Origin: a virus
Reading direction: 5' to 3' (one strand)
IMG/VR virus record: IMGVR_UViG_3300037808_000204
Span: 1-37,695 of that record
Length of the DNA stretch: 37,695 nt
How positions within the stretch are numbered: position 1 is the stretch's first letter; each line of letters begins with the position of its first letter. Below, piece by piece: positions 2,819-37,695 of this stretch. The position numbers were made by a program, and so were the translations under genes. The notes below the pieces were generated by a model. That model had not been told where the DNA came from. It saw only the letters and a list, made by a program, of their open reading frames with translations, and searched no databases.

Positions 2819-3017
2819 TGCTACAGAACTCCTGCACCTGCTCCGGTGTCCACTCGTCAGGGGCTTTAGCTATCACCACCTCACCTTGGGTGTCTGTGAA
2901 GTAACCCTCAATATGGACTATGCCACACGCATGAGAGGCTCCTTCTAGAATACTCAGCGACTGTTGACACCCAGTTAGGAACACAGCGACGCCTATAATG
3001 GCTAATATATGTCTCAT
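2808..3017 (-). CDS. Small lipoprotein, candidate outer spanin, 69 aa
   Basis: The N-terminus MRHILAIIGVAVFLTGC is a classic signal peptide with lipobox LTGC, placing the modified Cys at residue 17, so the mature chain (about 53 residues) would be anchored in a membrane of the Gram-negative envelope. ATG overlaps the DUF1353 stop (ATGA at 3017). It lies one gene from an N-terminally anchored 83-aa protein with a helical tail, which together could form a two-part spanin. The mature part is not Pro-rich like typical Rz1, so this is only a hypothesis. Confidence 0.65.
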   Translation of the reverse strand: MRHILAIIGVAVFLTGCQQSLSILEGASHACGIVHIEGYFTDTQGEVVIAKAPDEWTPEQVQEFCSNGD

Positions 3018-3400: not shown

Positions 3401-3641
3401 GTCTACTCTCTAGTACAGCTGTACGTGATTCTAAGTATCCTATGCGACTAGCGTGATTAAGAAGCTCTGAACCCATCATAGCGTTAGCTGCTTTCTGCTC
3501 TCGCCACATCTCCTCAGAGACTGCTGTGTCCACCTCTACTGCTTGGCTTAGGTCTAACAATAACATGACTACACCTATCAATGCTGCTGCTGCAATCGTT
3601 GAAGTCATCCCAGTCACTATAGTCTCTGTTCTTATTCTCAT
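3390..3641 (-). CDS. Single-pass membrane protein with helical tail, candidate inner spanin or holin, 83 aa
   Basis: After a short basic N-terminus (MRIRTET) there is one hydrophobic helix at about residues 14-30 (TIAAAALIGVVMLLLDL), then a predicted helical region (residues 38-80) with heptad-like spacing ending ESRHDG. This is the topology of an i-spanin or of a small tail-attached membrane protein. It starts on the stop of the preceding gene (TAATG). Its neighbours are DUF1353 and a lipoprotein. Function is inferred only from topology and neighbours. Confidence 0.6.
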   Translation of the reverse strand: MRIRTETIVTGMTSTIAAAALIGVVMLLLDLSQAVEVDTAVSEEMWREQKAANAMMGSELLNHASRIGYLESRTAVLESRHDG

Positions 3642-9552: not shown

Positions 9553-9833
9553 TTGTACAGCTCTTCGTCTTCGTCGGTCTGTGGTTCCAGCGACTGTAAG
9601 TAATCAGTCTCCAGTATCTCAATATTGTCTCTGAGGTTCTGCATAGCTCTGATTACGTTAATTTGTCCCTTCCTAAACCATAGGTCGTTGGAAGAGGTCG
9701 CATTCTCTACTGAATTGATTGAGTCTACCTGGGTGGTAAGCTCTAATAGAAGGACTTGGAAGGCTTCATAGCCCCACAGTTCCTTCATGCTATCAAAATA
9801 GTTCTCAAGAGGGATGTCCCGCTTCTCTGTCAT
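9549..9833 (-). CDS. Hypothetical head-region protein, 94 aa
   Basis: Helical, acidic protein (MTEKRDIPLENYFDSMKEL...) with an internal NDLWFRKGQINVIRAM segment and an acidic tail (TDEDEELYN). It starts on the stop of the HNH gene (TAATG) and overlaps the zinc-ribbon gene by four bases. Position between portal and scaffold matches small helical proteins of other podoviruses that have no assigned function. No motif supports an enzyme. Confidence 0.7.
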   Translation of the reverse strand: MTEKRDIPLENYFDSMKELWGYEAFQVLLLELTTQVDSINSVENATSSNDLWFRKGQINVIRAMQNLRDNIEILETDYLQSLEPQTDEDEELYN

Positions 9834-10348
9834 TAGGCTTCCTCTAAGTACTTTATTGCTTGGATAAGGAGGGCTGTGTCGTCTTTAAAGCCCCCTAGTG
9901 ATGTGTTGCAGTTAGTACAAAGAAGACCGCGTACATCTCCTGTAGAGTGGCAGTGGTCTACGTGAAGGACACCAAAGCGCTGTGATTTGGCTTTAACTCT
10001 ACATATCTTACAACCACCCTCTTGGTGTTTTAATAGAGCGAGGTAGCCTTCGTGGGTAAGTCCGTATTGCTTTAAGTGGTTATCCCTTCGTCGGGAATTG
10101 TCACACGCTTTACAGACATGAGCTAAGCCGTCGCCTGATCTACAATGGCTGTAAAAATGAGAAGGCTCTTTAGTCTCCTCACAATCGGTACAGCGCTTAG
10201 GTCGGGTGCTTCTAGCGTTGTTTCTAGTCTGTACATAAGAGGCTTTACATGTTTTACACTGAGGGTCTAAGTTGTCCTTCCTTGTGGAATCCTTACTAAA
10301 GGCCTCTTTTTCTTTAGTTTCCCCGCATTTACTGCATTGTTTCATCAT
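9833..10348 (-). CDS. HNH endonuclease, recombination endonuclease VII family, 171 aa
   Basis: Two N-terminal Cys4 fingers (CSKC...CKTC and CTDC...CKAC, residues about 4-85) are followed by an endonuclease VII-like domain: YGLTHEGYLALL, CKICRVK, VDHCHSTGDVRGLLC and a second Cys pair (CTNC). The catalytic His-Asp-His core is intact. Family members are phage-borne DNA nucleases, often mobile. It is inserted between the 55-aa gene and the 94-aa gene and has its own promoter and leader hairpin. Start ATG has GAGGAG seven bases upstream. Confidence 0.9.
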   Translation of the reverse strand: MMKQCSKCGETKEKEAFSKDSTRKDNLDPQCKTCKASYVQTRNNARSTRPKRCTDCEETKEPSHFYSHCRSGDGLAHVCKACDNSRRRDNHLKQYGLTHEGYLALLKHQEGGCKICRVKAKSQRFGVLHVDHCHSTGDVRGLLCTNCNTSLGGFKDDTALLIQAIKYLEEA

Positions 10349-10367
10349 ACTTTATCTCCTCAATAGA

Positions 10368-10411
10368 TAAGTAGGCTACTAACAGATTGAGGCTGCTTTC
10401 GCCTAGAGCAG
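10368..10411 (-). promoter_or_regulatory. Conserved leader hairpin of endonuclease VII-type gene (copy 1)
   Basis: In the untranslated leader on the minus strand: a 5-bp stem CTGCT/AGCAG with loop CTAGGCGAA (10393-10411), then the block AGTAGCCTACTTA (10368-10380). The same arrangement precedes the HNH gene at 14407, with changed but still paired stem bases. A structural RNA element in the leader is inferred. Confidence 0.55.
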
Positions 10412-10425
10412 TTAAGCTCTTATAT

Positions 10426-10454
10426 AGCATAACACACTTTTACTCAAATGTCAA
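10426..10454 (-). promoter_or_regulatory. Leftward sigma70 promoter before HNH/scaffold/capsid genes
   Basis: TTGACA (10449-10454), a 17-base spacer, and TATGCT (10426-10431) on the minus strand. Its flank and spacer closely match the promoter at 15.42 kb (both share AAATAAAGCTTGAC). It would drive the HNH, zinc-ribbon, scaffold and capsid genes up to the capsid terminator. Confidence 0.8.
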
Positions 10455-10469
10455 GCTTTATTTACTCTT

Positions 10470-10637
10470 TTATGTTGTTTTCTTCTTAGATACAGCTGGT
10501 TTGGGCTTCTCAGGCCTGCTAATCTGTTCTTTAAGGCTCCTAATTTCCTCATCTAGTGCATTAAACTTAGCGTTAATCTGTTCTGCTAGGTCTTGGAGGT
10601 CGCGGCCTGTGACCACTACTGAATAACTGGTTCCCAT
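10470..10637 (-). CDS. Small coiled-coil protein after portal, 55 aa
   Basis: ATG at 10637 with AGGAGA upstream, TAA at 10470-10472. The sequence (MGTSYSVVVTGRDLQDL, then FNALDEEIRSLKEQI) shows a short beta start and an amphipathic helix suited to coiled-coil formation, ending with a Lys/Pro-rich tail. It follows the portal gene by 14 bases. Role unknown; a head-assembly accessory is plausible. Confidence 0.7.
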   Translation of the reverse strand: MGTSYSVVVTGRDLQDLAEQINAKFNALDEEIRSLKEQISRPEKPKPAVSKKKTT

Positions 10638-10651
10638 AGGGGTTCTCCTGT

Positions 10652-12580
10652 TTATTGTGCTGATTTACCTAGCTGAATTGCTAGTTTACCTTCTTCTAAC
10701 TGCTTACCAACTACAGCAAGCCTTCTATTGAAGTTCTTATCGTCCTCACTATCCATACTAGCGACAATCTTGAGTCTGTCGTTCTCTAGGTCGATTGGAA
10801 TAGCTCTAATGTCTGCCTCATACTTCTTAGCTCTACCGTCACTCTCAGCTGCTTGTCCGTTCAGGGCTGCTGTCTGTGATGCTTGGAAGGCCATTTGAGC
10901 CTGTCTAGCTTCTTCAGCTGCTTTCTGCTCTTCCTCTGAAGGCTGTGCAGCTTCGTCGATGATAGCCATGATCTCTTCTCTGTTAGAGACGTTCATGTGA
11001 TCTACAACGGCCTTCATTAAAGCTGGCTTGACTGGGCTATCGTCTCCCATAGTCTGTAGGAGCTGCACAAGCTGTGCTACTTCGTACTCTCTAGCTACAA
11101 TGCCTAAGTTACCATTGACAATGAACTTGTAGTCCTTTGAAGGGAACGTATCAGGCTCGTATTGCATGTAACGCCAAGCCACCTTAGTGATGAAGGGGAC
11201 TAGGAAGGATTCTTCAAAGTTAAGTTGTGTACGCTTGTGGCGCTTTAGGACGGAGCCTTTCGACATAGACATCGCTGCAGCTGCTTGGTCTGCGTTGATG
11301 TTACCTGGAGACATATCTACAGCGCCTGTGGCTTGTTGCACCATAGCCGCTAATGATTGAGCCTGTGGGAATGTAATCTGAGACACTTCACCGAACTTAA
11401 ACGGGTGTAACACCTCTCTAGGGTCTCCGTTGGTCAATACCACCTTACCAGGCGCTACAGTCGGTTTAGCTCCACGGGGCATACGAGAAGCGTCCATACC
11501 GAGCATAGGATGGACAGTAAGACCTAAGGCATCTACCCTAGCCCTTAGCTCAGCATCGAGCGCCTTCTGGCTGTTATAGCCCTTCTCCACTGTTCCACGG
11601 CCATGGAAGGAACTAGGCAGCTTATCCCACTGGAAAGCTATGACGTTTCTATCGTTCATCATGTTGGGGTTCTGCTCAGCCTTCAACAGCTCTCCGCCAT
11701 CTGCTAAGATGACTATAGCTTCTACGTAGAAGTCTTCTTCCTCTCTGCCTACAATCTCCACTATCTCGGAGTTAGGAGGCATCTTAGCTTCCTCTAGGAG
11801 ATGTCGAGGAACTAAACCGAAGTATTTAGTAAGCCTTGTTTGTCCCTTAGGAGGACTACTTAGTTCTAAGTCAGCTTGTCTATCAGTGTCTGTGACGTCT
11901 GTAGTGATCGGTGTATCTAGGTAGACGCCCTTCTCCTGTAGTATTTCTATGGAATGGGTGGGGACGTCTTTGTCGATTGCACAGCCTAGAGCGTCTTCTA
12001 TGCCCGATGCAGCGCTGTCGATACGGAAGTGTCTAGGCATGACAGGAATCAGCTTAGTCACTGTCCTATCCACCTCTGTGACGCCTACGATGCGTTGATC
12101 ACCTTCAATACGCTCATCAGGACGTGTCTCTGTGACAGTGTCTAGGACAACTTCGCCTATACCAGTGCCGAAGATGGCTGCGTTGAGTATACACTCTGCT
12201 ACCTTCTGTTTAGTGCCTAGACGGGAGAAGTCTTCGTGCATCATAGTTCTTAGATGCTGTATGTCTGTGTTGTCTTCGTCGGCTTTGTCGTCTACGATGT
12301 CAAAGAACTTACCACGTCCAAATGTAGCTTCTTCGATCTCAGCGACATTACTCTCAACCGCCTGTTGAATCGCTGGCGATATAATGCGGCTACGTTCGCT
12401 AGAGCGTGTCTTGTCCTCTTGAGCCCAGATGCCCCTGAAGAGGCGGTAATACTCATCATGCTTCGTCCTGTAGTTGGAGTTGTAGTGTTCTGCCCAGCTA
12501 TCTACTTTATCCATAACCCACGTTTCTAATGAGTCATCAGGACTGGTTCGTTTCTCTTCTAAATCAACAACTGTAGCCAT
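10652..12580 (-). CDS. Portal protein, 642 aa
   Basis: Long late-operon protein after terL, with features of podovirus portals: an N-terminal region with WAEHYNSNYRTKHDEYYRLFRG, SRIISPAIQQAVES, RHFRIDSAASGIEDA, and a Gln/Ala-rich helical C-terminal tail (about 555-640). It forms the dodecameric DNA entry/exit ring at one vertex, to which terminase and tail attach. I start at ATG 12580, with AGGATA just upstream and next to the terL stop; ATG 12601 is an alternative that overlaps terL. Length is close to other marine portals. Confidence 0.9.
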   Translation of the reverse strand: MATVVDLEEKRTSPDDSLETWVMDKVDSWAEHYNSNYRTKHDEYYRLFRGIWAQEDKTRSSERSRIISPAIQQAVESNVAEIEEATFGRGKFFDIVDDKADEDNTDIQHLRTMMHEDFSRLGTKQKVAECILNAAIFGTGIGEVVLDTVTETRPDERIEGDQRIVGVTEVDRTVTKLIPVMPRHFRIDSAASGIEDALGCAIDKDVPTHSIEILQEKGVYLDTPITTDVTDTDRQADLELSSPPKGQTRLTKYFGLVPRHLLEEAKMPPNSEIVEIVGREEEDFYVEAIVILADGGELLKAEQNPNMMNDRNVIAFQWDKLPSSFHGRGTVEKGYNSQKALDAELRARVDALGLTVHPMLGMDASRMPRGAKPTVAPGKVVLTNGDPREVLHPFKFGEVSQITFPQAQSLAAMVQQATGAVDMSPGNINADQAAAAMSMSKGSVLKRHKRTQLNFEESFLVPFITKVAWRYMQYEPDTFPSKDYKFIVNGNLGIVAREYEVAQLVQLLQTMGDDSPVKPALMKAVVDHMNVSNREEIMAIIDEAAQPSEEEQKAAEEARQAQMAFQASQTAALNGQAAESDGRAKKYEADIRAIPIDLENDRLKIVASMDSEDDKNFNRRLAVVGKQLEEGKLAIQLGKSAQ

Positions 12581-12581
12581 A

Positions 12582-13856
12582 TTAATATCCTGATAATTCA
12601 TCTAAGGGTTCGTAATCGTCGTATTCAAAGTCTGCAACGTAAGTTTGCTGCGCTAACTGTGATATATAAGCAAGGGCGTCTACCATATCATCGTGTGTTA
12701 ACACGTCAGGGAACTGAAACAGCTCATCTAAGAACTGTGTAGTCCACTCGCCTTTATTAAAGCGTATAGCGCCATTCTCCATCCTACCTTGAAGCGCCCA
12801 CACCACTCTGTCGGTCTTCTTCTGGTTGCCATGAGTTAGCTCTTCTACGCGGAAGAATCTATTGTGCTTCCGCATTAGGTTTGAGAGGGGGTCATTAACA
12901 GCCTGCTTAGCTATTCCTCTCTCAATACCAAAACCAGCAGGTTGATTAAACTCTACAGCGCTAAACAGCTTCCTGCATGTTTCATCTAATGTCCACCTAC
13001 CAGCTATAATGTCTTTCACCCACCAATTATACGGGCCTTTCTCGTCCTCAAACTCACCCACCTTAACTATAGCGATGGCTGTATTGTCTCTGTTCTTAGC
13101 CCTCTTCTTACCTGTCTGCTCGAAGCCAGCAAGGTCGGCTGCAATGTAATACTCACCACCTTTAGGCTCTTCAGTATTGAAGTGAACCCACTCTTCCTTG
13201 AACTGCTCAGACCCTTTAGCCTGGAAGCTTGCCTCAAACTCTTGTCTAAACGCCCAAGACGCCATTGTCTTCTTAGCTGTGTCTATCTCTTCCTTACTGA
13301 TGTAAGGGTTGTCGTAGCTTGTATAGTGGAAGGCTTCCCAGTCTGGGTCTCCGCTTAGCTCTGCATAGGTATACAACTCATAGAACGAATTTCTACCGGC
13401 AGGTGTGCCGATCATTACTACAGGAGCTAATAAGTCAGCACAGGCTGGTCTTAATATCAGATTCCATGTGTCCTCCTTCATAGTCGCATATTCATCGAGG
13501 ACTAAGAAGTTTAAGGAGACTCCGCGCAGTGTTTCTGGTCTATCAGCACCTTTTAAGTATATCACATTGCCATTAACAAGCGTAATAGTTAAGTTGTTGA
13601 CGTGAGCGCCTTTAATGAGGTCTCCACCTAGTTCATGGAGTTTGTCCCACATCACGTCTCTTGCCATTTGTTGGGTAGGAGCTACATAAAATGTCTTGCC
13701 TCTCTTAGCCTGTAGAGCCGCTACTAATAATCTGTAAGCAGCGTACTCACTCTTACCTGTTCGTCGCCCTGCGGCGATAACCTGGAATCTAGCAGGACTG
13801 TCCCAGCATTCTTTCTGCCAAGGCAGTAGATCGACAGAGAATTCAGTGTTGCTCAC
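12582..13856 (-). CDS. terL: Terminase large subunit, 424 aa
   Basis: The packaging motor. ATPase: Walker A AAGRRTGKS at residues 28-36 and Walker B LNFLVLDEYA with D121-E122. Nuclease domain: AADLAG with D241, D257 in RDNTAIAIVKV, and a late acidic site HDDMVDALAY near residue 395. Start is GTG at 13856, overlapping the HNH stop (GTGA), with AAGGAA eight bases upstream inside the HNH gene. It cuts concatemeric DNA and pumps it into proheads through the portal encoded next. Confidence 0.95.
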   Translation of the reverse strand: MSNTEFSVDLLPWQKECWDSPARFQVIAAGRRTGKSEYAAYRLLVAALQAKRGKTFYVAPTQQMARDVMWDKLHELGGDLIKGAHVNNLTITLVNGNVIYLKGADRPETLRGVSLNFLVLDEYATMKEDTWNLILRPACADLLAPVVMIGTPAGRNSFYELYTYAELSGDPDWEAFHYTSYDNPYISKEEIDTAKKTMASWAFRQEFEASFQAKGSEQFKEEWVHFNTEEPKGGEYYIAADLAGFEQTGKKRAKNRDNTAIAIVKVGEFEDEKGPYNWWVKDIIAGRWTLDETCRKLFSAVEFNQPAGFGIERGIAKQAVNDPLSNLMRKHNRFFRVEELTHGNQKKTDRVVWALQGRMENGAIRFNKGEWTTQFLDELFQFPDVLTHDDMVDALAYISQLAQQTYVADFEYDDYEPLDELSGY

Positions 13857-14407
13857 TTATTGTGTTTCCTTAGATAGTTAGCCGCGCTGTTACAGAAGAG
13901 CGGATTATCTTGAAAGAGGCCTAGAGCATGGTTACATTGTTTACACAAGAGACTGCGGACTTTCCCTGTAGCATGGTCGTGGTCTACACAAAGCGTGCCT
14001 TCAGGGGTCTCAATTTCTTTTATATTACATATGGCGCAGCGTCCATCCTGCTCTGAATACATATTGTCATAATCAGTTCGTGCAAGTCCGTAGGCGCGCT
14101 TTAAGTGTCTATCACGGCGCTGTTCTTTATTGTAAGTGTCTCTTCCTACGCCGGCCATGCAGTCTTTACAATAGCTCTGTAGGCCTGATTTAGACCTTGT
14201 AGAATTAGTGAAACACTCTGCTTTCTTTACTTCCTTACACGCAGCACACTGCTGTTCTTCAACAGAAGGCGTAAAAGTAGAGCGTAGTTTATCGACCGCC
14301 TTTACACAGGGCTTGCAATAACTAAATAGACCGTCTTTGGCCTTGTTGTTCTTACTGAACAGCGCAGTCTCTTTAGTCTCTCTACACTTACTACATTGCT
14401 TCATCAT
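13853..14407 (-). CDS. HNH endonuclease, recombination endonuclease VII family, 184 aa
   Basis: Two tandem Cys4 fingers (CSKC...CKPC at about 4-34 and CAAC...CKDC at about 54-83), then an endonuclease VII-like core: YGLARTDYDNMY, CAICNIK, LCVDHDHATGKVRSLLC and CKQC. All catalytic and metal residues seem present. It is lodged between the endolysin and terL genes with a four-base overlap into terL, so terL translation depends on it. The leader carries a hairpin shared with the HNH gene at 10348. Role: probably a free-standing homing or debranching nuclease; I cannot tell which. Confidence 0.9.
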   Translation of the reverse strand: MMKQCSKCRETKETALFSKNNKAKDGLFSYCKPCVKAVDKLRSTFTPSVEEQQCAACKEVKKAECFTNSTRSKSGLQSYCKDCMAGVGRDTYNKEQRRDRHLKRAYGLARTDYDNMYSEQDGRCAICNIKEIETPEGTLCVDHDHATGKVRSLLCKQCNHALGLFQDNPLFCNSAANYLRKHNK

Positions 14408-14474: not shown

Positions 14475-14846
14475 TTAGTAACACCAAAGCACAGGTGTTG
14501 TACTGCGTATATCTAAATGGACAAAGCCGTCTGCAACGCCAACGCCTGTGAAGCCCATACTGAGCGCTGCTTCTACAAGCTTACGCCTCTGTGCTCCACC
14601 GTTCACAGCTATATCGGCTGCAATGCCTCTGTTGTGCGTTCCCGGTGTAGCCTTCTTAGCCTCTGCAGGATGCGTAGCGTGTCTGTAGCCCGATGTAATA
14701 ACAAAGGGGAAATCACAGAGATAGCGTAGATTGTCTAGCTTATGGACAAAGCTGGCTTGTATCTCATTACGTCCTGTATGCTTACAGGCGAATTCGTCTC
14801 TTAAAAAGAAGCGGAAGCCTTCATCATTGGTATCAGGAAGCCTCAT
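14475..14846 (-). CDS. Endolysin, peptidase M15 type, 123 aa
   Basis: Contains the M15A-type metallopeptidase pattern: SGYRHATHP, then GTHNRGIAADI (first zinc His and Asp) and GFVHLDIR (second His). The family cleaves peptide crosslinks in peptidoglycan at the end of infection. There is no signal peptide, so it needs a holin. I start at ATG 14846 because AGAGG is six bases upstream; ATG 14870 is an alternative. It overlaps the end of the small terminase gene. Early position in the late operon, far from the membrane-protein genes near 2-4 kb, is notable. Confidence 0.88.
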   Translation of the reverse strand: MRLPDTNDEGFRFFLRDEFACKHTGRNEIQASFVHKLDNLRYLCDFPFVITSGYRHATHPAEAKKATPGTHNRGIAADIAVNGGAQRRKLVEAALSMGFTGVGVADGFVHLDIRSTTPVLWCY

Positions 14847-15219
14847 CATCAACCTCTTCGTAGTCTGCATCAGCTATGTCTTCAGAGACATCTACCTTGT
14901 CGTTCCCAGCTACACTGATGTTTATATTGATTCCTGAAGGCTTCTTAGAATCTGTGGTGTCAAATAGAGACAATGGAGCTAGTCTGTCAAACAAGAGCTT
15001 CCACGCCGCTGCCTGCCCTTTATGGTCATCATCCAGAGCAGCATCAAATATCTTAGTCAACACCTTCTTAGACTTAGGACTGTTTAGCATCCTAGCCTTG
15101 TATTCGTTCATTATAGCAGCATCACCCTTAGGACGACCTACGCTCTTTCGACCACCAGGCTTCTTTGCTGCTAAATCGGCCTTCTTAGGTCTACCGACCC
15201 TCTTCTTGATGTCAGACAA
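14833..15219 (-). CDS. terS: Terminase small subunit with AT-hook motifs, 128 aa
   Basis: Starts with TTG at 15219. The N-terminus has two Gly-Arg-Pro-Lys cores (VGRPKKAD at about 8-15 and VGRPKGD at about 27-33), AT-hook-like motifs suited to A+T-rich minor-groove binding. A helical segment (about 40-80, KARMLNSPKSKKVLTKIF) and an acidic C-terminal tail (DADYEEVDDEAS) follow. It is the first late gene, upstream of terL apart from endolysin and HNH, as expected for the DNA-recognition part of the packaging complex. Confidence 0.8.
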   Translation of the reverse strand: MSDIKKRVGRPKKADLAAKKPGGRKSVGRPKGDAAIMNEYKARMLNSPKSKKVLTKIFDAALDDDHKGQAAAWKLLFDRLAPLSLFDTTDSKKPSGININISVAGNDKVDVSEDIADADYEEVDDEAS

Positions 15220-18302: not shown

Positions 18303-18490
18303 TGAATATTGAAACCGCTAGGGAGTTAGTTACTGCGCTAAATAGTGACGAGTCAGACGATTGCTTCTATAGAGTGCTACGCTCGGGATACGAAGGTAAC
18401 GCCGACATTGAGGTACTTGACAAAGATGACGGACGTTTTATAGGGTTCTTAGCATACCCCGAACAAGCGTTAAAGGAGCTACAACAATGA
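18302..18490 (+). CDS. Hypothetical early protein, 62 aa
   Basis: Short acidic protein (MNIETARELVTALNSDES...) with an RSGYEGNADIEVLDKDDG stretch. TAATG coupling to the gene before it and an ATGA overlap with the next. No function assigned. Confidence 0.65.
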   Translation: MNIETARELVTALNSDESDDCFYRVLRSGYEGNADIEVLDKDDGRFIGFLAYPEQALKELQQ

Positions 18491-18636
18491 CTACAGCACT
18501 ATGCATCATTGCAGGAACACTACTAACCACTATCACCATCCTAGCCTATATAGCTTCAAAGCTCGACAGCAGGGGCTACGACGGGTGCGTGATAGACTAT
18601 AGAGAACGGAGCAGCTTGTTGGAGATGTTGTTATGA
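18487..18636 (+). CDS. Small membrane protein, 49 aa
   Basis: ATG at 18487, TGA at 18634. The N-terminus MTTALCIIAGTLLTTITILAY forms one hydrophobic helix (about residues 4-23), followed by a hydrophilic tail (KLDSRGYDGCVIDYRERSS). Predicted N-out or N-in membrane anchor. Ribosome site AAGGAG within the preceding gene. Role unknown. Confidence 0.65.
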   Translation: MTTALCIIAGTLLTTITILAYIASKLDSRGYDGCVIDYRERSSLLEMLL

Positions 18637-25383: not shown

Positions 25384-25553
25384 GAGGCAAGAAAGCTAAA
25401 CAGTTAAGAGGATTGGCTAAGCGCTTTGCAGCTATGCAAGACCTACCACACACCACATACGAAGTAGCAGGTACACAGATAGTGTTGGGGCAATGTCAGC
25501 GTAGGATGTATCAGACTATGAAGGCTAAATACTACTCAGTGGGGTGGCAGTGA
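25380..25553 (+). CDS. Small basic conserved phage protein, 57 aa
   Basis: I start at ATG 25380 (MRGKKAKQLRGLAKR), overlapping the exonuclease stop by four bases. The basic N-terminus and the end QRRMYQTMKAKYYS resemble a small protein found next to the exonuclease in several podoviruses. Nucleic-acid binding is inferred from charge. Confidence 0.75.
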   Translation: MRGKKAKQLRGLAKRFAAMQDLPHTTYEVAGTQIVLGQCQRRMYQTMKAKYYSVGWQ

Positions 25554-26056
25554 TGATTACTCAGGAGCGCCTTAAAGAGTTATTGGATTACGACGCTGAG
25601 ACTGGGTTGTTTACGTGGCTTAAGCCCACAACTAACGGCGTAAGGATAGGACAGACCGCAGGTGTTATAACGTGCTATGGGTATCGCGCTATCCGAGTGG
25701 ATAATAAAATATATAGGGCTGCACGTCTTGTGTGGCTGCATGCCCACGGCGTTTTTCCTGACAACAATATTGACCACATCAACGGGCTGCGTGATGATAA
25801 CCGTTTAGAAAACCTACGAGACGTCACCCAGGCGGAGAACATGAGAAATCAACGCATAGGCAGCAGGAACAGCTCTGGCGTCTTAGGGGTTGGGTGGGAT
25901 AAGACACGCAGTAAATGGAGGGCTTCTATTCGCTACAAAGGCCTTAATAAGACCTTAGGGCGTTTTACTTCCCTGTTAGATGCTGTGGCTTCTAGAAAGG
26001 GCGCTGAGCGTCTGTACGGGTTTCACCGCAATCATGGGAGCACCCCTGATGCCTAG
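25553..26056 (+). CDS. HNH endonuclease with AP2-like DNA-binding domain, 167 aa
   Basis: ATG 25553 overlaps the previous stop (TGATG). HNH core: ARLVWLHAHGVFPDNNIDHI and RLENLRDV (about residues 58-90). C-terminal AP2-type region: SGVLGVGWDKTRSKWRASI...GRFTSLLDA. This is a standard free-standing homing endonuclease design. It is inserted between the small basic gene and the next HNH gene, and its end overlaps the next start. Confidence 0.9.
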   Translation: MITQERLKELLDYDAETGLFTWLKPTTNGVRIGQTAGVITCYGYRAIRVDNKIYRAARLVWLHAHGVFPDNNIDHINGLRDDNRLENLRDVTQAENMRNQRIGSRNSSGVLGVGWDKTRSKWRASIRYKGLNKTLGRFTSLLDAVASRKGAERLYGFHRNHGSTPDA

Positions 26057-26426
26057 AATACTAAAGAAGCGTACAAGGGCTGGAAAGCTCTGGACTGAGG
26101 CGCGTTATTTCCAATTTATAAGAAGCGCTCTCAGGCAGGCGACGATGAAATACCCCGTCATAGCTCAATACAAGAAAGACAATAGACGTACTGTGACGGG
26201 CAAGAGGCATAAGTTTGAGTACAAATGCGTAGAATGTAAGAAGTGGAAGCAGGGGAAGCAATGTGCTGTAGATCATATAGAGCCTGCGGGAAGCCTGAAG
26301 TCCTATGAAGACCTCCCAGGCTTTGTAGCTAGGTTGTTCTGCGAAGCTGATAACCTACAGATACTATGCGATGTATGCCACAAGGTGAAGACTGAACAGG
26401 AACGTCAAGCGAGGAAGAAGCTATGA
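26049..26426 (+). CDS. HNH endonuclease in the T7 gp3 position, 125 aa
   Basis: I start at ATG 26049 (MPRILKKRTRAGK). Zinc sites CVECKKW and CDVCHKV flank the HNH core CAVDHIEPAG and FCEADNLQILC. The basic N-terminus suggests DNA binding. It is near the exonuclease, where T7 has its Holliday-junction endonuclease gp3, so it may be the phage's functional resolvase rather than a mobile gene. It overlaps the previous gene by eight bases. Confidence 0.85.
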   Translation: MPRILKKRTRAGKLWTEARYFQFIRSALRQATMKYPVIAQYKKDNRRTVTGKRHKFEYKCVECKKWKQGKQCAVDHIEPAGSLKSYEDLPGFVARLFCEADNLQILCDVCHKVKTEQERQARKKL

Positions 26427-26614: not shown

Positions 26615-26786
26615 AGTGGATGAGGCATTATCAATGTACATAACACCAACAGGCGTTCTAATCAATGAAGACGATACAGACATTGCTATTACGGTGTCGC
26701 ACCAACAGATGCTGAACATGGCTGCGCTGTATCAATCACAGATGTTCGTTATGGGAGATGCTAGAGATGACACTGACGCTTCCTGA
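26604..26786 (+). CDS. Hypothetical protein, 60 aa
   Basis: Starts MRVRVDEALSMYITPTGV with GAGGAG five bases upstream; a beta start is followed by ITVSHQQMLNMAALYQ and an acidic end. No family assigned. Confidence 0.6.
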   Translation: MRVRVDEALSMYITPTGVLINEDDTDIAITVSHQQMLNMAALYQSQMFVMGDARDDTDAS

Positions 26787-26922
26787 TATATACGATAGGC
26801 TGAAGCAGCTAGACGAGATAACGCTGATGGAACTCCTGGAGATCAACAGCGAAGACTTGGTAGACCGCTTCGAAGACTTAATAGAAGCTAAGGCAGACGA
26901 ACTTGAGGAGCAACTGACATGA
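26767..26922 (+). CDS. Small conserved acidic protein, 51 aa
   Basis: Starts inside the previous gene at ATG 26767 and stops at 26920-26922. Sequence MTLTLPDIYDRLKQLDEITLMELLEI and DLVDRFEDLIEAK is a recurring pattern of small helical proteins in T7-like marine phages. Role unknown. It overlaps the DUF3310 gene by four bases. Confidence 0.75.
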   Translation: MTLTLPDIYDRLKQLDEITLMELLEINSEDLVDRFEDLIEAKADELEEQLT

Positions 26923-27437
26923 AGGTTGAAGAGGCTAAACAGCTCGATGAAGAGACAGAGGTTGTTGTTGTAGGCATTAGCAACGCAGGGATATATGCTA
27001 AAGTGGGAGATGTAGGCACGTTAAGAGACGTTAACGACACAGGCTCTTGCTGGGTACACTTCCCCTACCTAAACGATTCTTGGTACTTCGATGCTTCAGA
27101 GCTTGAAGTGGCTGATAACGACGCTGGAGAGACCTTGAGGCAAAGCATCAACGACGCTACGCCGGCTGATTGGGACGAAGCGACTAGAGTTATTAACCAG
27201 AACATGAGAGCTGTTACGCAGTCTGGGACGCCTTTAGACACACAGGTGGGAGGAGATCATTATAGCAGTATGTCTATACAGCCTGTTCAATACATCGTAG
27301 CTAATGAGCTAGGCTTCTGTGAAGGCAACGCTATTAAGTATCTATCTAGATGGAAGAGCAAGGGAGGTGTTGAAGACCTACAGAAGGCTAAGCACTTCAT
27401 AGACATGTTAATCGAACAGGTGGAGCACAGAGCATGA
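26919..27437 (+). CDS. DUF3310 domain protein, 172 aa
   Basis: C-terminal half matches DUF3310: GGDHYSSMSIQPVQYIVANE, FCEGNAIKYLSRW, KGGVEDLQKAKHFIDMLIE (about residues 109-166). Phage DUF3310 proteins often sit with nucleotide-metabolism genes; the N-terminal half (VVVVGISNAGIYAKVGDVGTL) is SH3-like in pattern. Enzymatic function is not settled. Confidence 0.88.
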   Translation: MKVEEAKQLDEETEVVVVGISNAGIYAKVGDVGTLRDVNDTGSCWVHFPYLNDSWYFDASELEVADNDAGETLRQSINDATPADWDEATRVINQNMRAVTQSGTPLDTQVGGDHYSSMSIQPVQYIVANELGFCEGNAIKYLSRWKSKGGVEDLQKAKHFIDMLIEQVEHRA

Positions 27438-27628
27438 GTGATTCAAGCAGCAGCAGCATTGGTATAGGTTTCTTTGGTCTATTGGCCGTGTTGTTCGTAG
27501 GCTTAAAGCTAACGGGCTACATAGGGTGGTCGTGGTGGTGGGTGACAGCGCCTCTGTGGGGCTTTTTAGCGTTCTTCGCTGTAATCGCCTCTGTAGCTTG
27601 GGCTATCTTCTTCGCGGCTTCTAAATGA
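27434..27628 (+). CDS. Two-helix transmembrane protein, 64 aa
   Basis: A Ser-rich start, then two hydrophobic stretches (IGIGFFGLLAVLFVGLKL at about 9-26; PLWGFLAFFAVIASVAWAIFF at about 40-60) separated by TGYIGWSWWW. Related small phage membrane proteins with this Trp-rich middle are widespread and of unknown role. ATG overlaps the previous stop by four bases. Confidence 0.75.
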   Translation: MSDSSSSSIGIGFFGLLAVLFVGLKLTGYIGWSWWWVTAPLWGFLAFFAVIASVAWAIFFAASK

Positions 27629-27795
27629 AGGCTAAAGTGGCGACATGGGAAGTTGATTGGGACTTGGTAGACAACATAGAACATCTCAAAGACATCCTAA
27701 GAGACCTTGATACATACTTCTTAGACTATCCTGTTAATGCAAGCTATTTATGTGTTGAAACAACTAGACAGTTTGAAGTTGATGAGGAACATTAA
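27625..27795 (+). CDS. Hypothetical acidic protein, 56 aa
   Basis: ATG at 27625 is coupled to the preceding stop, and its own TAA at 27793 overlaps the next ATG. Sequence starts MKAKVATWEVDWDLVDNIE, with a LKDILRDLDTYFL helix. No family recognised. Confidence 0.65.
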   Translation: MKAKVATWEVDWDLVDNIEHLKDILRDLDTYFLDYPVNASYLCVETTRQFEVDEEH

Positions 27796-28142
27796 TGAAA
27801 TATTGCCCTAGATGTCAAGACACTAAGAAGAACGAAGCCTTCAACAAGAGCGAGGCAAGCAATGACGGGCTACAGAGCTATTGTAGACTGTGTAGCAAGA
27901 ACAACAGTGCCCAGCAGCGCAGAGAGTTCAAAGAAACCTGTGTTGACTATCTAGGCGGTGCTTGCTGGAAATGTATGCAAGAGTTTCCTATAGCCGTCTT
28001 TGACTTTCATCACCTGGATGCTTCAGAGAAAGACTTAGAAGTGTCTGGGATGACTCACATGAGCTGGGAAGACGTCACAGCAGAGCTGGACAAATGTGCC
28101 CTGCTTTGTTCTAATTGTCACAGAGAGGTGCATCATGCGTAG
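27795..28142 (+). CDS. HNH endonuclease with single Cys4 finger, 115 aa
   Basis: N-terminal finger CPRCQDTKKNEAF...CRLC (about residues 4-33) is the same module as in the endonuclease VII-type genes. It is followed by a short HNH core: CWKCMQEF, FDFHHLDASEKD, CALLCSNCHREVHH (about 55-114). TAATG overlap with the previous gene and it overlaps the next ATG. Likely a mobile nuclease. Confidence 0.88.
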   Translation: MKYCPRCQDTKKNEAFNKSEASNDGLQSYCRLCSKNNSAQQRREFKETCVDYLGGACWKCMQEFPIAVFDFHHLDASEKDLEVSGMTHMSWEDVTAELDKCALLCSNCHREVHHA

Positions 28143-28275
28143 AATAATAGACTTTATAGACGACATAGTCATAGCAGTGGTGGTGAAGTATCCTTGCCTG
28201 TGGCGTCTGCTTTTGATGCCTGCAGAGCTTTACGTGGTGTTATTAATGATTACTATAGGAGCACTATTATGGTAG
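28135..28275 (+). CDS. Small two-helix membrane protein, 46 aa
   Basis: ATG at 28135 with GAGAGGTG upstream, TAG at 28273. The chain MRRIIDFIDDIVIAVVVKY, then CLWRLLLMPAELYVVLLMITIGALLW, is nearly all hydrophobic, with a central Arg and a Pro. Predicted one or two membrane helices. It overlaps the next gene's start by seven bases, suggesting joint function. Confidence 0.65.
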   Translation: MRRIIDFIDDIVIAVVVKYPCLWRLLLMPAELYVVLLMITIGALLW

Positions 28276-28805
28276 CTAAGAAGACTAACGAACACGCTAA
28301 GCGGGTGAGAGACTTTGTTATAGGATTCTGTGTCACCTTCTTAACCATAGCAGCTCTCTATGGAGCCTATAACGTCTCAGGAGTCTCTCAGGAGCCCGTC
28401 ACAGCCTCTAGAGTGCAAAGCCTTACCAATGTACCAGCAGCTCCTCAATTCATCTGTGGGCACTCAGAGAAGCTTAGACAGCTTATGTTCTTCTGTACAG
28501 CCTCTGAAGTGGGTAGATGGGAAGTGTTCTGGATAGTTCCTGGTCAGATACTACAGGACAATCCTAACGTACAAATACAGTTTATAGAGGCTGAAGTGTA
28601 CAATGATAGCTACGGCAAGATATTTACTACATCGCCTGATCTACTCTTTGTACGCTTCTGGTCAGCTGCTACGGGCGTTATGGCTACTAAGGTGGTGGAG
28701 GTGGACGGGTCTATGCAATCCTGCAATCATCCTATGTGCTTTAGAGTGGATAGAAGCGGGGATGAGCCTGATAACGGGATTGTGTTAGAAGGACTAAGAG
28801 CATGA
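28269..28805 (+). CDS. N-terminally membrane-anchored periplasmic protein, 178 aa
   Basis: I start at ATG 28269 (MVAKKTNEHAKRV). A basic N-terminus precedes one hydrophobic helix (about residues 17-35, VIGFCVTFLTIAALYGAY) and then a beta-rich domain with several Cys (CGHSEKL, FFCTASE, CNHPMC), which would sit outside the inner membrane, where disulfides could form. It is between a 46-aa membrane gene and a secreted helical-repeat gene. No family recognised. Confidence 0.7.
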   Translation: MVAKKTNEHAKRVRDFVIGFCVTFLTIAALYGAYNVSGVSQEPVTASRVQSLTNVPAAPQFICGHSEKLRQLMFFCTASEVGRWEVFWIVPGQILQDNPNVQIQFIEAEVYNDSYGKIFTTSPDLLFVRFWSAATGVMATKVVEVDGSMQSCNHPMCFRVDRSGDEPDNGIVLEGLRA

Positions 28806-29521
28806 AGACTATACTGTTCACTATAGCTATGTTGTTCATTAATAATGTACAAGCACAGAACGTGGACAGCTATAACGAATCCTTAATAGCTTCAGCGTCT
28901 CAGCAGGCTAATACGCTCATAGAGCAGGGAAATATAGACGCAGCTGCACAGCTCTATCGTGACATGATTCACTTGTATAAAGTTAATGAAGGACTCTATA
29001 CAACATCAACGATCGACCTAGCTATAAGCCTACGTCAATGGGCTGAAGACGCTGGAGACCTACAAGAGGCTTATGACTGGGGAGCCTATCTGAGCTTCAT
29101 AGCTATAAAGAACGATGAAGCCTATGTGTATTTAGCCGTTATAGAGGCGTTGTTGTTCGATGTAGAGAGTGAATGCTTTGAGAGACATCCTGATAGTCTT
29201 ATTAGATGGTGGAAGAACAACCCAGGCTGTGTAGAGCTTAGATATTATAGAGCTGATTCGTGGATACGAGCTACAGAGCTGCAGGAATTAGCTGTAGAAG
29301 TGGCAGAGAATAAGACAGAGGCTTTAGAGCTGCTTTATACATTAGCAGGGATAACAGCTACAGTGGTCTATAGAGTCGATGCAGGAGAGCCTACGTTTAG
29401 GCGTAATGGAGACTACATAGAACAAGTGGAGCAGCTGGAACAGCCTAAATACGTCAGTAAGAGGTATTATAGCCTACAACGTGAGACGCTGGGTAGACTA
29501 ATGACAGGAGAGGAAGAATGA
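28802..29521 (+). CDS. Secreted TPR/Sel1-like helical-repeat protein, 239 aa
   Basis: The N-terminus MKTILFTIAMLFINNVQAQ is a signal peptide with a probable cleavage after VQA (residues 16-18). The mature part is helical-repeat-like, with ANTLIEQGNIDAAAQLYRDMI, a helix pair around 70-105 (LRQWAEDAGDLQEAYDWGAYL) and a short Cys pair (CFERHP...NNPGC). Periplasmic location is inferred; helical repeats usually bind protein partners. Unusual cargo for a lytic phage, and its ATG overlaps the previous stop. Confidence 0.75.
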   Translation: MKTILFTIAMLFINNVQAQNVDSYNESLIASASQQANTLIEQGNIDAAAQLYRDMIHLYKVNEGLYTTSTIDLAISLRQWAEDAGDLQEAYDWGAYLSFIAIKNDEAYVYLAVIEALLFDVESECFERHPDSLIRWWKNNPGCVELRYYRADSWIRATELQELAVEVAENKTEALELLYTLAGITATVVYRVDAGEPTFRRNGDYIEQVEQLEQPKYVSKRYYSLQRETLGRLMTGEEE

Positions 29522-29679
29522 CAGCTAGTGAAGCCGGTAAAGGCAGCAGGCAGCGTAAGAGGTTAGTTAGCCAAGAAGAGGCTGATAAGAACTGGGATGA
29601 AATGCAGAGAAAGAATAGAGAAGCTAGAGAGAAGGCTGCTAAGGAAGAGAAGGCTACACAGGCTAAGGAGTCTGTGTAG
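29518..29679 (+). CDS. Small charged conserved protein, 53 aa
   Basis: ATG at 29518 overlaps the stop of the secreted gene; TAG at 29677. It starts MTASEAGKGSRQRKRLV and continues with a Glu/Lys/Arg-rich helix (MQRKNREAREKAAKEE), a pattern I know from short phage proteins that begin with a GSxQR motif. Role unknown. Confidence 0.7.
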   Translation: MTASEAGKGSRQRKRLVSQEEADKNWDEMQRKNREAREKAAKEEKATQAKESV

Positions 29680-30218
29680 TGGTTTTTAAGAGATGCTATA
29701 AGTGTACTGAGACCAAGCCTGCAGACGCTTTCTACGTAGATAATACGCGTAAAGGAGGCAGAAGTAGTCGGTGTAAAGACTGTGCACGTATACAGGAGAG
29801 AGGGCGTTATAGGTATTCTACAGAGGCTAAGGAGGCACGTAAAGCGGTTACACGGGCGCGTAGAAATGCGCCAGAGACATTAGCGCGTCAAGCAGCACAG
29901 AAGAAAGTCAGCAGAGCAGCTTACGAGGCTTCTCCACAAGGGAGAGAGCAAAGGGCTATAAAGGACGCCCGTAAGAGAGCAGGCCTTCAAAGCGCTTCAA
30001 GGAACTTCAGCGAGCTTGATTCTTTAGTCTATAGGGAAATGCGTAGACACGTTAAAGACTTGGAAGAGTTAACAGGACAGGCGTACAACATAGATCATAT
30101 AGTCCCGCTACGTCATAAAAAGGCATGCGGGCTTCACAGGCATTCCAACTGGCAAGTAGTCCCTGCTAGTTGGAATAACCGTAAGGGGGCTAGTAATATG
30201 GAGGTGTACAAAAGATGA
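29679..30218 (+). CDS. HNH endonuclease with Cys4 finger, 179 aa
   Basis: GTG start at 29679 with AAGGAG eight bases upstream. The N-terminal Cys4 finger CYKCTETKPADAF...CKDC (about residues 6-36) is followed by a long basic helical linker (RKAVTRARRNAPETL) and a C-terminal HNH: NIDHIVPLRHKKACGL, HSNWQVVPASWNNRK. Catalytic His and Asp are present. It is probably a mobile endonuclease. Confidence 0.88.
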   Translation: MVFKRCYKCTETKPADAFYVDNTRKGGRSSRCKDCARIQERGRYRYSTEAKEARKAVTRARRNAPETLARQAAQKKVSRAAYEASPQGREQRAIKDARKRAGLQSASRNFSELDSLVYREMRRHVKDLEELTGQAYNIDHIVPLRHKKACGLHRHSNWQVVPASWNNRKGASNMEVYKR

Positions 30219-30439
30219 ACAACGAAGACATATTAACACTCAATGAGATTAAGCGCTTTGAAGGTATTATGAAGGAGGAGGAAGTAGCCTATCCTTGGTA
30301 TTGGTATAGAGACAGTGGAGAGGTATTATGCCTAGAGGACAACGGTGATCTATGTATTGTGAGACAGGCTGGGACGCCTTTGAAGCAGACAGGGCTAGCG
30401 GATGTCGTCCACTTAAACGCCCAGAACAGCCGTCTATAA
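30215..30439 (+). CDS. Last early gene, hypothetical, 74 aa
   Basis: ATGA overlap with the HNH gene. Sequence MNNEDILTLNEIKRFEGIM, then YPWYWYRDSGEVLCLEDNG; Trp/Tyr-rich middle with beta pattern. It ends 84 bases before the convergent terminator. No family recognised. Confidence 0.65.
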   Translation: MNNEDILTLNEIKRFEGIMKEEEVAYPWYWYRDSGEVLCLEDNGDLCIVRQAGTPLKQTGLADVVHLNAQNSRL

Positions 30440-30523: not shown

Positions 30524-30562
30524 AAGCCGCCTATGTAGCTGATGACATAGGCGGCTTCTTTT
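30524..30562 (+). terminator. Terminator between converging early and late operons
   Basis: A perfect 13-bp stem (AAGCCGCCTATGT / ACATAGGCGGCTT) with an eight-base loop is followed on the plus strand by CTTTT. The T-run makes it a good rightward terminator. In the leftward direction the hairpin is the same but with no long T-run, so it is weaker. Confidence 0.85.
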
Positions 30563-33086
30563 ATAGAGCAGGTTGTTCAGGACGCGGTCTCTGTGCTGGC
30601 TCTTGCCCCCCAGTGCCGAGGTTCATTAAAGAGTTAGCAAACCAAGCGTTGATATGACGCCTTGCCTTCATAGGCACCCTGCCGCTAGGCCCTATATCTA
30701 AAGAGAGGAGCGCTTTAAATAGGTCTTCATCAACTATAGAATCTTCTATCAAGCGTCTAGCGGGGTTTACAACACCGGCTGAGAGTAGCTGTTGAAACTT
30801 CTCAGATAATATTGCAGGGCCCTGGATAGTGTTAGTGACTCTTCTACCTACAGCAGCACCAGTCAGCCTAGCTACTAAGACGCCTATCGCTCCAAGGCTC
30901 TCTGCTGTGACGGGTATTCTCTCTCCAGAGACTCTCGCAGTGTCTAGTCTACGGGCAGTTCTAAGAATTCTGTCAAAGCGCCCTCTCTCTTCTTTAGTAT
31001 ACATCTGCATCATAGTAGAGCGTACCTTACGGTCACCAAGGAGCCTGCCTAGTTTACCCCCGTCGATGAAGAGATTACCAGCGGCGTCTGTCTGTGTCGA
31101 AGACGCCCCATTTAGTAAGTATGTTGAGAAGGCGGATTTTAAACCCTGAGTAGCCTCGCCTGTTTCGTCTCTAGCGGCCATACGTAGCAGTTGTTGTACG
31201 TCTCTAGAGGTTGAGCGCGAATTAAGTATTCGATTGAAAGCCTTATCAGGGCCTTCTTCGATGAATATCACTGCTTTGTTTACTCTAGGGTCGGCAAAGC
31301 CTCGCTTGCTCCCGCTCCTTAAACGAAGGTCGTCGCCTGTGCGTATGGCGTGTTGGATATCAGAGCGTAACGTAGGCATCCTGTTTAGTAGGTCAGCGTT
31401 AGAGTTTAAGAAGGTCTGAGCCGCTCTTGGGCTAAACTCATTACTCCTGAAGAAGGTGTGTTTAAGGAACTCCTCCATTGAGCCCTGCACCTCTGGGCTG
31501 CCGTCTACAGCCCTTAGTATACTATCATAGGCTTCTATGTTGCGCCCCCTGCCAGCTCCTAGTGTAGCCGTCAACGTGACAGAAGGGTCTATATAGTCTC
31601 CCCCTGCTCTTCCTCGCTTTAATATCTTACCTACAGTGCCTTGACTGAACCGTTCATTCATCTCTCTAGAGAAGGCCACAGCCGCTGCAACAGGGTTTTC
31701 TTGCCCGCTCTCTACAAAGATATTAGATATGTCTTCAGTAATACTGTCAGCAAGCTCATCAGCCAAACGCGCTCTGTTGTAATTAGGAGTGTCTCCAGCC
31801 CTCGCCACACGAGACTCAGCTCTCAACCTACTCTGCACACCTCTCAGCTCAAAGATGTTAGTGGTGTCTCCAATGAACTTATTATGTTCAGGGTTGAGGA
31901 ACTTAGCCGCTTTAGGCATATCACTTTGTTGTGCCACCGGCAAGCTAGCCACAAGCTCGTTACGGGCCGTCTTGGCTATGTTAACATTGACTAATAAGTC
32001 TTGATCTACTTGGGAGTATAGCTCACGCTCAAATGCCCTAGCGTCCTTTAGAGCGCCCTCTAACTCTTGTCTAACAAATAATTCAGTGCTTTCTCTAACG
32101 TTCTGAGGAGACACTGCAGATATAGAGACGTCAGCATTAGCAGCAGCAGCTTGTAGCCGCGCATCTAATAAGGCTCCATAGTATTGCACTTGCTTATCTA
32201 ACGTGCCCTGTATAGTATCTACATTGGCACCGCCGAAGTTGAAGTCATCAGTGATGGCTTGATTGATACGGGCTAGGTTGTCAGCAGCTTCGTCAGTAAG
32301 TCTACCATCAGCGGCTGCTCTTATCACGGAGTTTTCTAAGTCCATGTAGCCGCGCTCTCCTGTGCGCTGTGCTGTTGTGAAGGAGGCTCCTGGGGTAAAG
32401 TCATCAGAGGTGTTAAGGTTCTGTAGCGCTCTTTCTGGGTCTCCTACTTCCCTCAACCGCGTCCCTGCTCTTGATGTAGCTCCTTCAAGACTGAAAAAGT
32501 CTCTACTCTTCTTAAAGAAATAACGCGTAGGACTAAGCCTTAGCACATTAGGGGCCAACGAAGCGGCTGTTCCGCCTAGTACCTCGCCAATGAACTGTGC
32601 TGCTGGTAAGTCTGGGAAGGCTTTATCAAGAGTGAATCCACTTGCGGCTGCAGCCCCGCCGAACATGCCTTCTGCGGCTGTAGTGCGTAGCGGATTTGCT
32701 TTGAAGGTTTGCCCATATTGGTGCATTAAATTCTGAGCTGCAGTACGGATGCGCCCTGCGCCATTCACTGCAGGTATTCTAGACGAGATAAGACCAAGCC
32801 CTATAGCAATAGGAATAGAGTCTCTAATCCCTTCTCCAGTAGACGTGCCAACAGAATCTCTAAGGACGTTCTCTTCGGCTGGTGCAGGATTAGCAACAGC
32901 AAGAAGCTTTAAACGCTCTCCCGCAGTTAGATCAGGGTTCTGAAGCCCCATCTGTGCTCTTGCTTGAGGGGCTCCATCCATAGCCGACGTCAGTAAGTCC
33001 ATAACTGGGTCGATTACAACACGTCTTACGTCTCCTAAAAAACTACCGGAGGCGTTAGCAAGTTGATTCTTAAGGTCTTGAGCCAT
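30561..33086 (-). CDS. Large ejection/internal virion protein, 841 aa
   Basis: The last late gene and the largest. N-terminal hydrophobic segments (ESIPIAIGLGLISSRIP-like region about 90-105 and Gly/Ala-rich stretches about 135-190) alternate with long Arg/Glu/Ala helices. The C-terminal part has VSGERIPVTAESLGAIGVLVARLTG around 750. Three large genes in a row after the tail nozzle match the pattern of T7 gp14-16 or P22 ejection proteins that leave the virion to form a channel in the cell envelope. No lysozyme motif is apparent. Confidence 0.75.
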   Translation of the reverse strand: MAQDLKNQLANASGSFLGDVRRVVIDPVMDLLTSAMDGAPQARAQMGLQNPDLTAGERLKLLAVANPAPAEENVLRDSVGTSTGEGIRDSIPIAIGLGLISSRIPAVNGAGRIRTAAQNLMHQYGQTFKANPLRTTAAEGMFGGAAAASGFTLDKAFPDLPAAQFIGEVLGGTAASLAPNVLRLSPTRYFFKKSRDFFSLEGATSRAGTRLREVGDPERALQNLNTSDDFTPGASFTTAQRTGERGYMDLENSVIRAAADGRLTDEAADNLARINQAITDDFNFGGANVDTIQGTLDKQVQYYGALLDARLQAAAANADVSISAVSPQNVRESTELFVRQELEGALKDARAFERELYSQVDQDLLVNVNIAKTARNELVASLPVAQQSDMPKAAKFLNPEHNKFIGDTTNIFELRGVQSRLRAESRVARAGDTPNYNRARLADELADSITEDISNIFVESGQENPVAAAVAFSREMNERFSQGTVGKILKRGRAGGDYIDPSVTLTATLGAGRGRNIEAYDSILRAVDGSPEVQGSMEEFLKHTFFRSNEFSPRAAQTFLNSNADLLNRMPTLRSDIQHAIRTGDDLRLRSGSKRGFADPRVNKAVIFIEEGPDKAFNRILNSRSTSRDVQQLLRMAARDETGEATQGLKSAFSTYLLNGASSTQTDAAGNLFIDGGKLGRLLGDRKVRSTMMQMYTKEERGRFDRILRTARRLDTARVSGERIPVTAESLGAIGVLVARLTGAAVGRRVTNTIQGPAILSEKFQQLLSAGVVNPARRLIEDSIVDEDLFKALLSLDIGPSGRVPMKARRHINAWFANSLMNLGTGGQEPAQRPRPEQPAL

Positions 33087-36738: not shown

Positions 36739-37418
36739 TAAGTCTTCCAGTTAGTGTTGTCAGGTCTATCACCTTCTACAGTCCACTCAGTCTTATCGGG
36801 TCTCTTCTCAGCATCAACCATTATAGCATTTGCTATGTAGGTCTCTGCTAGTTCAAACTGCATCCTACCAGACGTGCCTCCTGTGCTTCCACGCTCGTCT
36901 AAGGCGAAGGCGTAGCAGAGTTGTATTACAGGCTGTGATGGTATCACTAACGTGTCTGTATCAGCTGATAAGGCTACGCCTGTCTTGTCTACGTAGACTT
37001 TGATGTTATACACGCCCGCTGGGGGCACTCTAAGCTGTATCTGTGGGTCTAAATCAGCAGCAGGCTCTACGAAGGCGTAGTGAGTAGGAATACCACTGCT
37101 AGGAGTTGATATATTCTCTTCCTGTCTTATCCTATCAATAGGCCATTCTTTAAGGACTGTGAGGTTTGTGGTGTCAATGATCTGTGTAATGCTACCACCG
37201 TCACCTGCACCGTCGATAGCATAGGTGTCTACGTCTGCTGTAGTGGTGAAGTCTATTTCGTCTTCTAAGCTCAGCCAATCCCACCGCTCTTCCACGTACT
37301 GGCGGGCGTCATTGATGAAGTCACCTATCAGAGTTGAGTAATCTGACTCAGCAACAGTCGCTACTTGATTCTCTCTGAGACGTCTTAATACTTGATTAAC
37401 TGCTTGTAAATATGTCAT
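36738..37418 (-). CDS. Tail tube / adaptor protein A (T7 gp11-like), 226 aa
   Basis: N-terminal helices MTYLQAVNQVLRRLRE and LIGDFINDARQYVEERWDWL, followed by beta strands, are typical of the podovirus tail tubular A / head-completion proteins. It connects portal with the nozzle. ATG overlaps the stop of the repeat protein (TAATG). Length is near T7 gp11 (196 aa). Confidence 0.85.
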   Translation of the reverse strand: MTYLQAVNQVLRRLRENQVATVAESDYSTLIGDFINDARQYVEERWDWLSLEDEIDFTTTADVDTYAIDGAGDGGSITQIIDTTNLTVLKEWPIDRIRQEENISTPSSGIPTHYAFVEPAADLDPQIQLRVPPAGVYNIKVYVDKTGVALSADTDTLVIPSQPVIQLCYAFALDERGSTGGTSGRMQFELAETYIANAIMVDAEKRPDKTEWTVEGDRPDNTNWKT

Positions 37419-37695
37419 TATCCAAAGAGCCTCTTCAGGAGTTGTCTAGTTTGTACCACCTCAGGTTTGAGCACGTCGTTGAACTCAGGCATGAATTCAG
37501 AGAACATGCCGCTCGTCATTGGAGTGCCTATTCCAGCTAGCAGGCCGTTGGTTCCATTAGTGCCGTCGGTTCCATTAGTGCCGTTGGTTCCATTAGTGCC
37601 GTCGGTTCCATTAGTGCCGTTGGTTCCATTAGTGCCGTCGGTTCCATTAGTGCCGTTGGTTCCATTAGTGCCATTGGTTCCATTAGTGCCATTTG
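37418..37695 (-). CDS. Collagen-like / Gly-Thr repeat structural protein, C-terminal part
   Basis: Continuation of the frame that starts at 1530. The unique part (37418-37567) is reached from base 1 when the duplicate 37568-37693 is dropped. It encodes the last Gly-Thr-Asp/Asn triplets and a 42-residue C-terminus (GLLAGIGTPMTSGMFSEF..., ending QLLKRLFG, stop TAA). A non-repetitive, somewhat amphipathic tail after the repeats suggests a trimerisation or attachment domain. Confidence 0.8.
   Translation of the reverse strand, partial: NGTNGTNGTNGTNGTNGTDGTNGTNGTNGTDGTNGTNGTNGTDGTNGTNGLLAGIGTPMTSGMFSEFMPEFNDVLKPEVVQTRQLLKRLFG
37550..37695. repeat. 18-bp tandem repeat, right copy incl. terminal duplicate
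   Basis: Eight 18-base units (37550-37693): one unique (GTC type) then seven identical to 1-126. The final two bases (TG) differ from the expected GG at one position, suggesting a low-quality contig end. Confidence 0.9.

Follow-up and report, generated by a model that had tools for sequence, protein, structure and literature searches.

Does the 3' end of the early strand of this phage carry a gene cassette devoted to the host envelope? The window analysed here is a single virus record at its full length, IMGVR_UViG_3300037808_000204 (37,695 nt). A sequence-only reading had proposed that four ORFs of 64, 46, 178 and 239 aa (p64, p46, p178 and p239 below) form one cassette of membrane and secreted proteins, expressed early, coupled by overlapping starts and serving superinfection exclusion or envelope remodelling. 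All four ORFs are present on the plus strand (Table 1). The observation was a fair one, but it was over-assembled into one cassette.

Table 1. Features of the window and of the accessory-gene array (positions in the window; aa, amino acids; TM, transmembrane segment).
Feature	Positions	Strand	Description
Gly-Thr-Asn repeat protein	1-1530; 37418-37695	-	GTGTGT..., NGTNGT...; crosses both contig ends
Spanin-like pair	2808-3641	-	83 aa with N-terminal TM and 69-aa lipoprotein (LTGC); no PHROG match
HNH/EndoVII-type gene	9833-10348		
HNH/EndoVII-type gene	13853-14407		
Endolysin	14475-14870	-	phrog_894, E 2.7e-26
49-aa ORF	18487-18636	+	N-terminal hydrophobic stretch, near start of early run; no PHROG match
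HNH/EndoVII-type gene	25544-26056		
HNH/EndoVII-type gene	26061-26426		
p54	26758-26922	+	small conserved protein ahead of the variable spot
DUF3310 protein	26919-27437	+	left border of the spot; Pfam PF11753, E 3.4e-11; phrog_236, E 4.2e-25 (PHROG label 'nucleotide kinase')
p64	27434-27628	+	64 aa, two-TM hairpin, phrog_1374
p56	27625-27795	+	soluble, 56 aa; good codon score; no family found in PHROG or Pfam libraries
HNH endonuclease	27795-28142	+	115 aa; phrog_2255, E 1.9e-31
p46	28135-28275	+	46 aa, hydrophobic peptide, orphan
p178	28269-28805	+	178 aa, ATG at 28269; predicted N-terminal anchor and outer domain with four Cys, orphan
p239	28802-29521	+	239 aa; predicted signal peptide, helical, one TPR-like motif, orphan
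p53	29518-29679	+	small charged ORF; no family found in PHROG or Pfam libraries
Terminator-like hairpin	29653-29680	+	12 pairs, T run; at the p53/EndoVII junction
Endonuclease VII-like protein (EndoVII)	29679-30218	+	179 aa; phrog_1035, E 1.3e-18
p74	30215-30439	+	final ORF of the plus-strand run, judged from sequence
Terminator-like hairpin	30524-30557	+	13 pairs; convergent end of operon
Late-gene protein	30561-33086		no relatives found on searching

The plus-strand run encodes a primase/helicase, a DNA polymerase, an exonuclease and a conserved gene in the SSB position (a label of our own; the gene has no PHROG match), and the minus strand encodes terminase, portal, capsid and endolysin. 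By DNA polymerase comparison the nearest cultured phage is Pelagibacter phage HTVC104P (48%). The window is best read as the genome of a small tailed phage whose replication operon ends, on its 3' side, in an accessory-gene array. The Gly-Thr-Asn repeat protein at both contig ends suggests a circular genome whose ends join within this repeat. Because the late-gene protein next to the convergent hairpin found no relatives, the late region yields no synteny information.

Strand and position point to early expression of the four genes. Start/stop overlaps are indeed present; they extend, however, from the DUF3310 gene to p74 and include genes on both sides that have nothing to do with the envelope. 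They therefore mark an operon rather than a cassette, and the coupling argument for one unit fails. A pure envelope cassette is also contradicted by the gene order, since the soluble p56 and the HNH endonuclease, omitted from the sequence-only reading, sit between p64 and p46.

The inclusion of p64 does not hold either. It is a member of phrog_1374 (E 6e-18, profile positions 9-68 of 89, most of its length covered), and an alignment shows the conserved core LKLTGYIxWSWWWV to be common to p64 and proteins of Stenotrophomonas, Aeromonas, Mycobacterium and Gordonia phages. In those four phage groups the phrog_1374 genes adjoin genes for SSB, RecT, DnaB helicase, a RecA-like protein and dUTPase; in its own genome p64 likewise sits in the replication/nucleotide region. 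Relatives of p64 occur in at least 548 IMG/VR stretches. The best 80 of these were fetched, giving 62 non-redundant loci. On either side of the p64 relative the closest ORF with 70 aa or more was picked mechanically (n=120 in all), and ORFs towards the ends of the loci, at distances of up to 4 kb, served as the comparison. The top 25 of 121 families in the near set were genes acting on nucleic acids or nucleotides, an ATPase and families of unknown function, and the top 25 of 111 families in the far set added a transcriptional regulator and a sigma-70 decoy. Named families in both sets were polymerases, helicases, ligases, RNR, dUTPase, nucleases and similar; no structural or lysis family was among the top 25 of either set, in which most families have one or two members each. 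The 14 control genomes contained no match to phrog_1374.

The family and p64 share the invariant WSWWWV core, the two hydrophobic stretches and the replication-region location, the last being an association found here and not a formal criterion of phrog_1374. We noted no notable difference between them. PHROGs lists the function of the family as unknown; a literature search found no functional study of phrog_1374, and nothing relevant on 'Fragile-X-F' or the WSWWWV motif. Judged by its sequence and neighbours, p64 is a resident of phage replication regions generally and is to be separated from p46, p178 and p239; its presence here is therefore no evidence for an envelope cassette. Could p64, perhaps with others, act as a tether between phage replication and host membrane, or target a membrane enzyme of the host while DNA is synthesised? 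The company it keeps in the four phage groups and in the 62 loci speaks for this explanation, the strongest of the rivals, which we nevertheless consider unlikely. The evidence is one of neighbourhood, and the near and far sets look alike, which indicates residence in the region rather than contact with replication proteins. A tether is also silent on p178 and p239.

What, then, can be said of the three remaining genes? In a codon-usage test each of the four ORFs scored best in its own frame compared with the five others; the signal was weak for p64 (0.03 versus 0.01 in one antisense frame), p46 and p178. Transmembrane segments and signal peptides were called with a home-made rule, not with SignalP or TMHMM. 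It returned two hydrophobic stretches each for p64 and p46, in agreement with their description as a two-helix and a hydrophobic protein, and for p178 a single N-terminal segment (the same was reached by 157 of 2000 shuffles) with Cys 63, 76, 152 and 157 beyond the predicted anchor, again as proposed. A Sec-type signal peptide was called in p239 by the same simple rule, which 47 of 2000 shuffles also passed. Such features were found in five of the 36 listed early plus-strand ORFs, four of them within a run of six; the chance of this is about 0.025, a nominal value, as rule and gene list were picked once the cluster had been noticed. The only other such ORF is the 49-aa one listed in Table 1. 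Because of these membrane and secretion signals an envelope location of p178 and p239 is likely.

The TPR-like repeats claimed for p239 come down to one candidate motif. Scored against a designed-TPR consensus, residues 29-62 gave a best window reached by 26 of 2000 shuffles, and the sum of the two best windows was reached by ten of 2000. Beyond 29-62 the protein is not TPR-like in sequence, and matches to Pfam TPR models stay below the cut-off (E about 0.03, best 14.9 bits versus 27.5). Structure prediction, which the sequence-only reading had recommended, gave helical hairpins for p239, a further feature shared with TPR proteins, in a low-confidence single-sequence AlphaFold2 model (pLDDT 42.7 overall; blocks of 56-71 for residues 21-60 and 48-58 for residues 61-100). 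With a pLDDT of 36.6 for p178, both models were too poor for a fold search. Solved structures yielded only weak TPR and unrelated matches for p239 and none for p178.

Relatives of p178 and p239 were found neither in 50,697 phage records nor in IMG/VR pattern scans, where a single-protein scan reaches close relatives only, nor among related phages (36 and 42 records), where an empty result is weak. A plasmid search for p239 was also empty. None of the three proteins had a weighty match in Pfam, PHROG, NCBIfam or PADLOC, p46 having been compared with family libraries and the fetched loci only, and PADLOC gave no match at E up to 1 for p64, p56, p46, p178, p239 and p53. Bacterial and archaeal genomes, scanned for p239, gave a single archaeal stretch of about 40 aa (L037; E 3e-5 among candidates), which lies antisense to a 348-aa ORF and was rejected as chance. 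As far as sequence comparison reaches, p46, p178 and p239 are orphans.

The same place was inspected in related phages, whose loci were collected by polymerase (35), helicase (8) and exonuclease (41) scans. In most relatives inspected, the gene after DUF3310 and p54 encodes a protein of some 585-660 aa. In locus L002 this protein is a ribonucleotide reductase (RNR; phrog_367, E 1.5e-180); in the others it was recognised as such by likeness or by eye. p54, with 23 matches in relatives (the closest ten 50-64% identical), adjoins DUF3310 there, upstream of RNR. An RNR in this place is common but not universal: Roseobacter phage CRP-125 has one, none is annotated in the stretch of cultured HTVC104P that was viewed, and the window has none. 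Loss of RNR together with gain of genes was seen in one genome only.

A few relatives have membrane genes at or near this spot that are unrelated to those of the window, and most have none, a count that is qualitative only, being contaminated by out-of-frame ORFs inside RNR. In three loci (L020, L033 and L035) DUF3310 and RNR are separated by an additional 78-aa protein with one TM, in the latter two also by a 45-aa hydrophobic peptide. In two others (L154 and L156) a p64 relative lies downstream of the exonuclease and a membrane protein of 89-93 aa follows RNR; in L156 a Band 7/SPFH lipoprotein (10292-11119, E 8.4e-18) is also found after RNR. The occurrence of different membrane and lipoprotein genes in some relatives speaks for a variable spot that is at times occupied by envelope genes. 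Elsewhere in these genomes, the late region of L016 encodes a 400-aa protein (10890-12092, minus strand) with a signal-peptide-like start and no Pfam match.

The Band 7 lipoprotein, from a family of membrane-domain proteins and near the equivalent place, would also suit a different role, in which p178 and p239 help the infected cell with uptake or with its stress physiology, or act against a host defence based in the envelope. Neither protein offers homology or a PADLOC match to this effect, and we regard such a role as rather improbable. Lysis control typically involves small TM and periplasmic proteins, and the membrane proteins might accordingly act as antiholin, in lysis inhibition or as an extra spanin-like function. 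As the sequence-only reading had pointed out, however, the genes lie outside the lysis genes: the endolysin is encoded on the other strand, 13 kb off, and spanin-like candidates, judged by eye, are also found elsewhere. Moreover, p239 has no lipobox and the genes sit in the replication operon. We rate lysis control lower because the lysis genes are located elsewhere, and think it distinctly improbable.

Nucleases surround the block. The 115-aa HNH endonuclease upstream and the 179-aa EndoVII downstream flank p46-p178-p239-p53. The genome has six HNH or endonuclease VII-type genes, four of which lie between 25.5 and 30.2 kb; in a relative, an HNH gene resembling the 170-aa one of the window interrupts the gene for DNA polymerase (L034, 9989-12141). 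Terminator-like sites number 11 in the window versus a mean of 3.4 in shuffles, and GC dips slightly, to 0.437, near the start of p239. Bracket, hairpins and GC dip would fit, without proving, a recent gain of the block. That the genes are merely neutral or selfish passengers travelling with homing-type nucleases, as the number of such nucleases might suggest, is very improbable given that their overlapping frames are intact and show some coding signal.

The explanation we tentatively put first, while holding it short of an even chance, is an accessory-gene array at the place where most relatives keep RNR, in which the p46-p178-p239 block alters the host envelope, most likely excluding a second phage. 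Of the proposed cassette, the targeting of p46, p178 and p239 is backed by sequence features, and p64 falls away as a separate, widespread replication-region membrane protein that need not share an envelope function. The genes of the p46-p178-p239-p53 region may have come in as a block. p178 would be anchored in the inner membrane and p239 would serve as a periplasmic helical adaptor, the two joining p46 to act as a membrane helper; they would alter the host envelope during infection, and the most likely outcome would be that DNA injection by a second phage is prevented. The near confinement of membrane and secretion features to this part of the early strand and the consecutive, overlapping frames of p46, p178 and p239 support this explanation. 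Against it stand the failure to find a homologue or a reliable fold for p178 or p239 and the lack of a membrane gene at this spot in most relatives.

Known exclusion proteins offer a partial parallel. P22 SieA, a small inner-membrane protein with three predicted TMs, and HK97 gp15 exclude phages (PMC10883804), as do Imm and Sp of T4 (PMC11436027). p178, predicted to lie in the inner membrane, is similar in size to SieA, Imm and gp15. In contrast to the three predicted TMs of SieA (PMC10883804), p178 has one TM and a large outer domain; it has no sequence match in the phage collection, and a predicted secreted partner gene, p239, sets it apart from the inner-membrane exclusion proteins. By location and analogy, envelope remodelling or superinfection exclusion is the likeliest role of the block, and superinfection exclusion by p46, p178 and p239 is possible by analogy rather than by homology. 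A bolder version would make p178 and p239 a new two-component membrane/periplasm system, perhaps stabilised by disulphides, with which a virulent phage rebuilds the host envelope, and the block a nuclease-flanked mobile element that displaced RNR; this would be a long shot.

In phages, the replication operon often ends in variable genes of obscure use. Here such a region presents p178 and p239, two orphans bearing membrane and secretion signals, as a concrete pair open to testing. The case also highlights phrog_1374, whose conserved membrane proteins occur in the replication regions of hundreds of phages.
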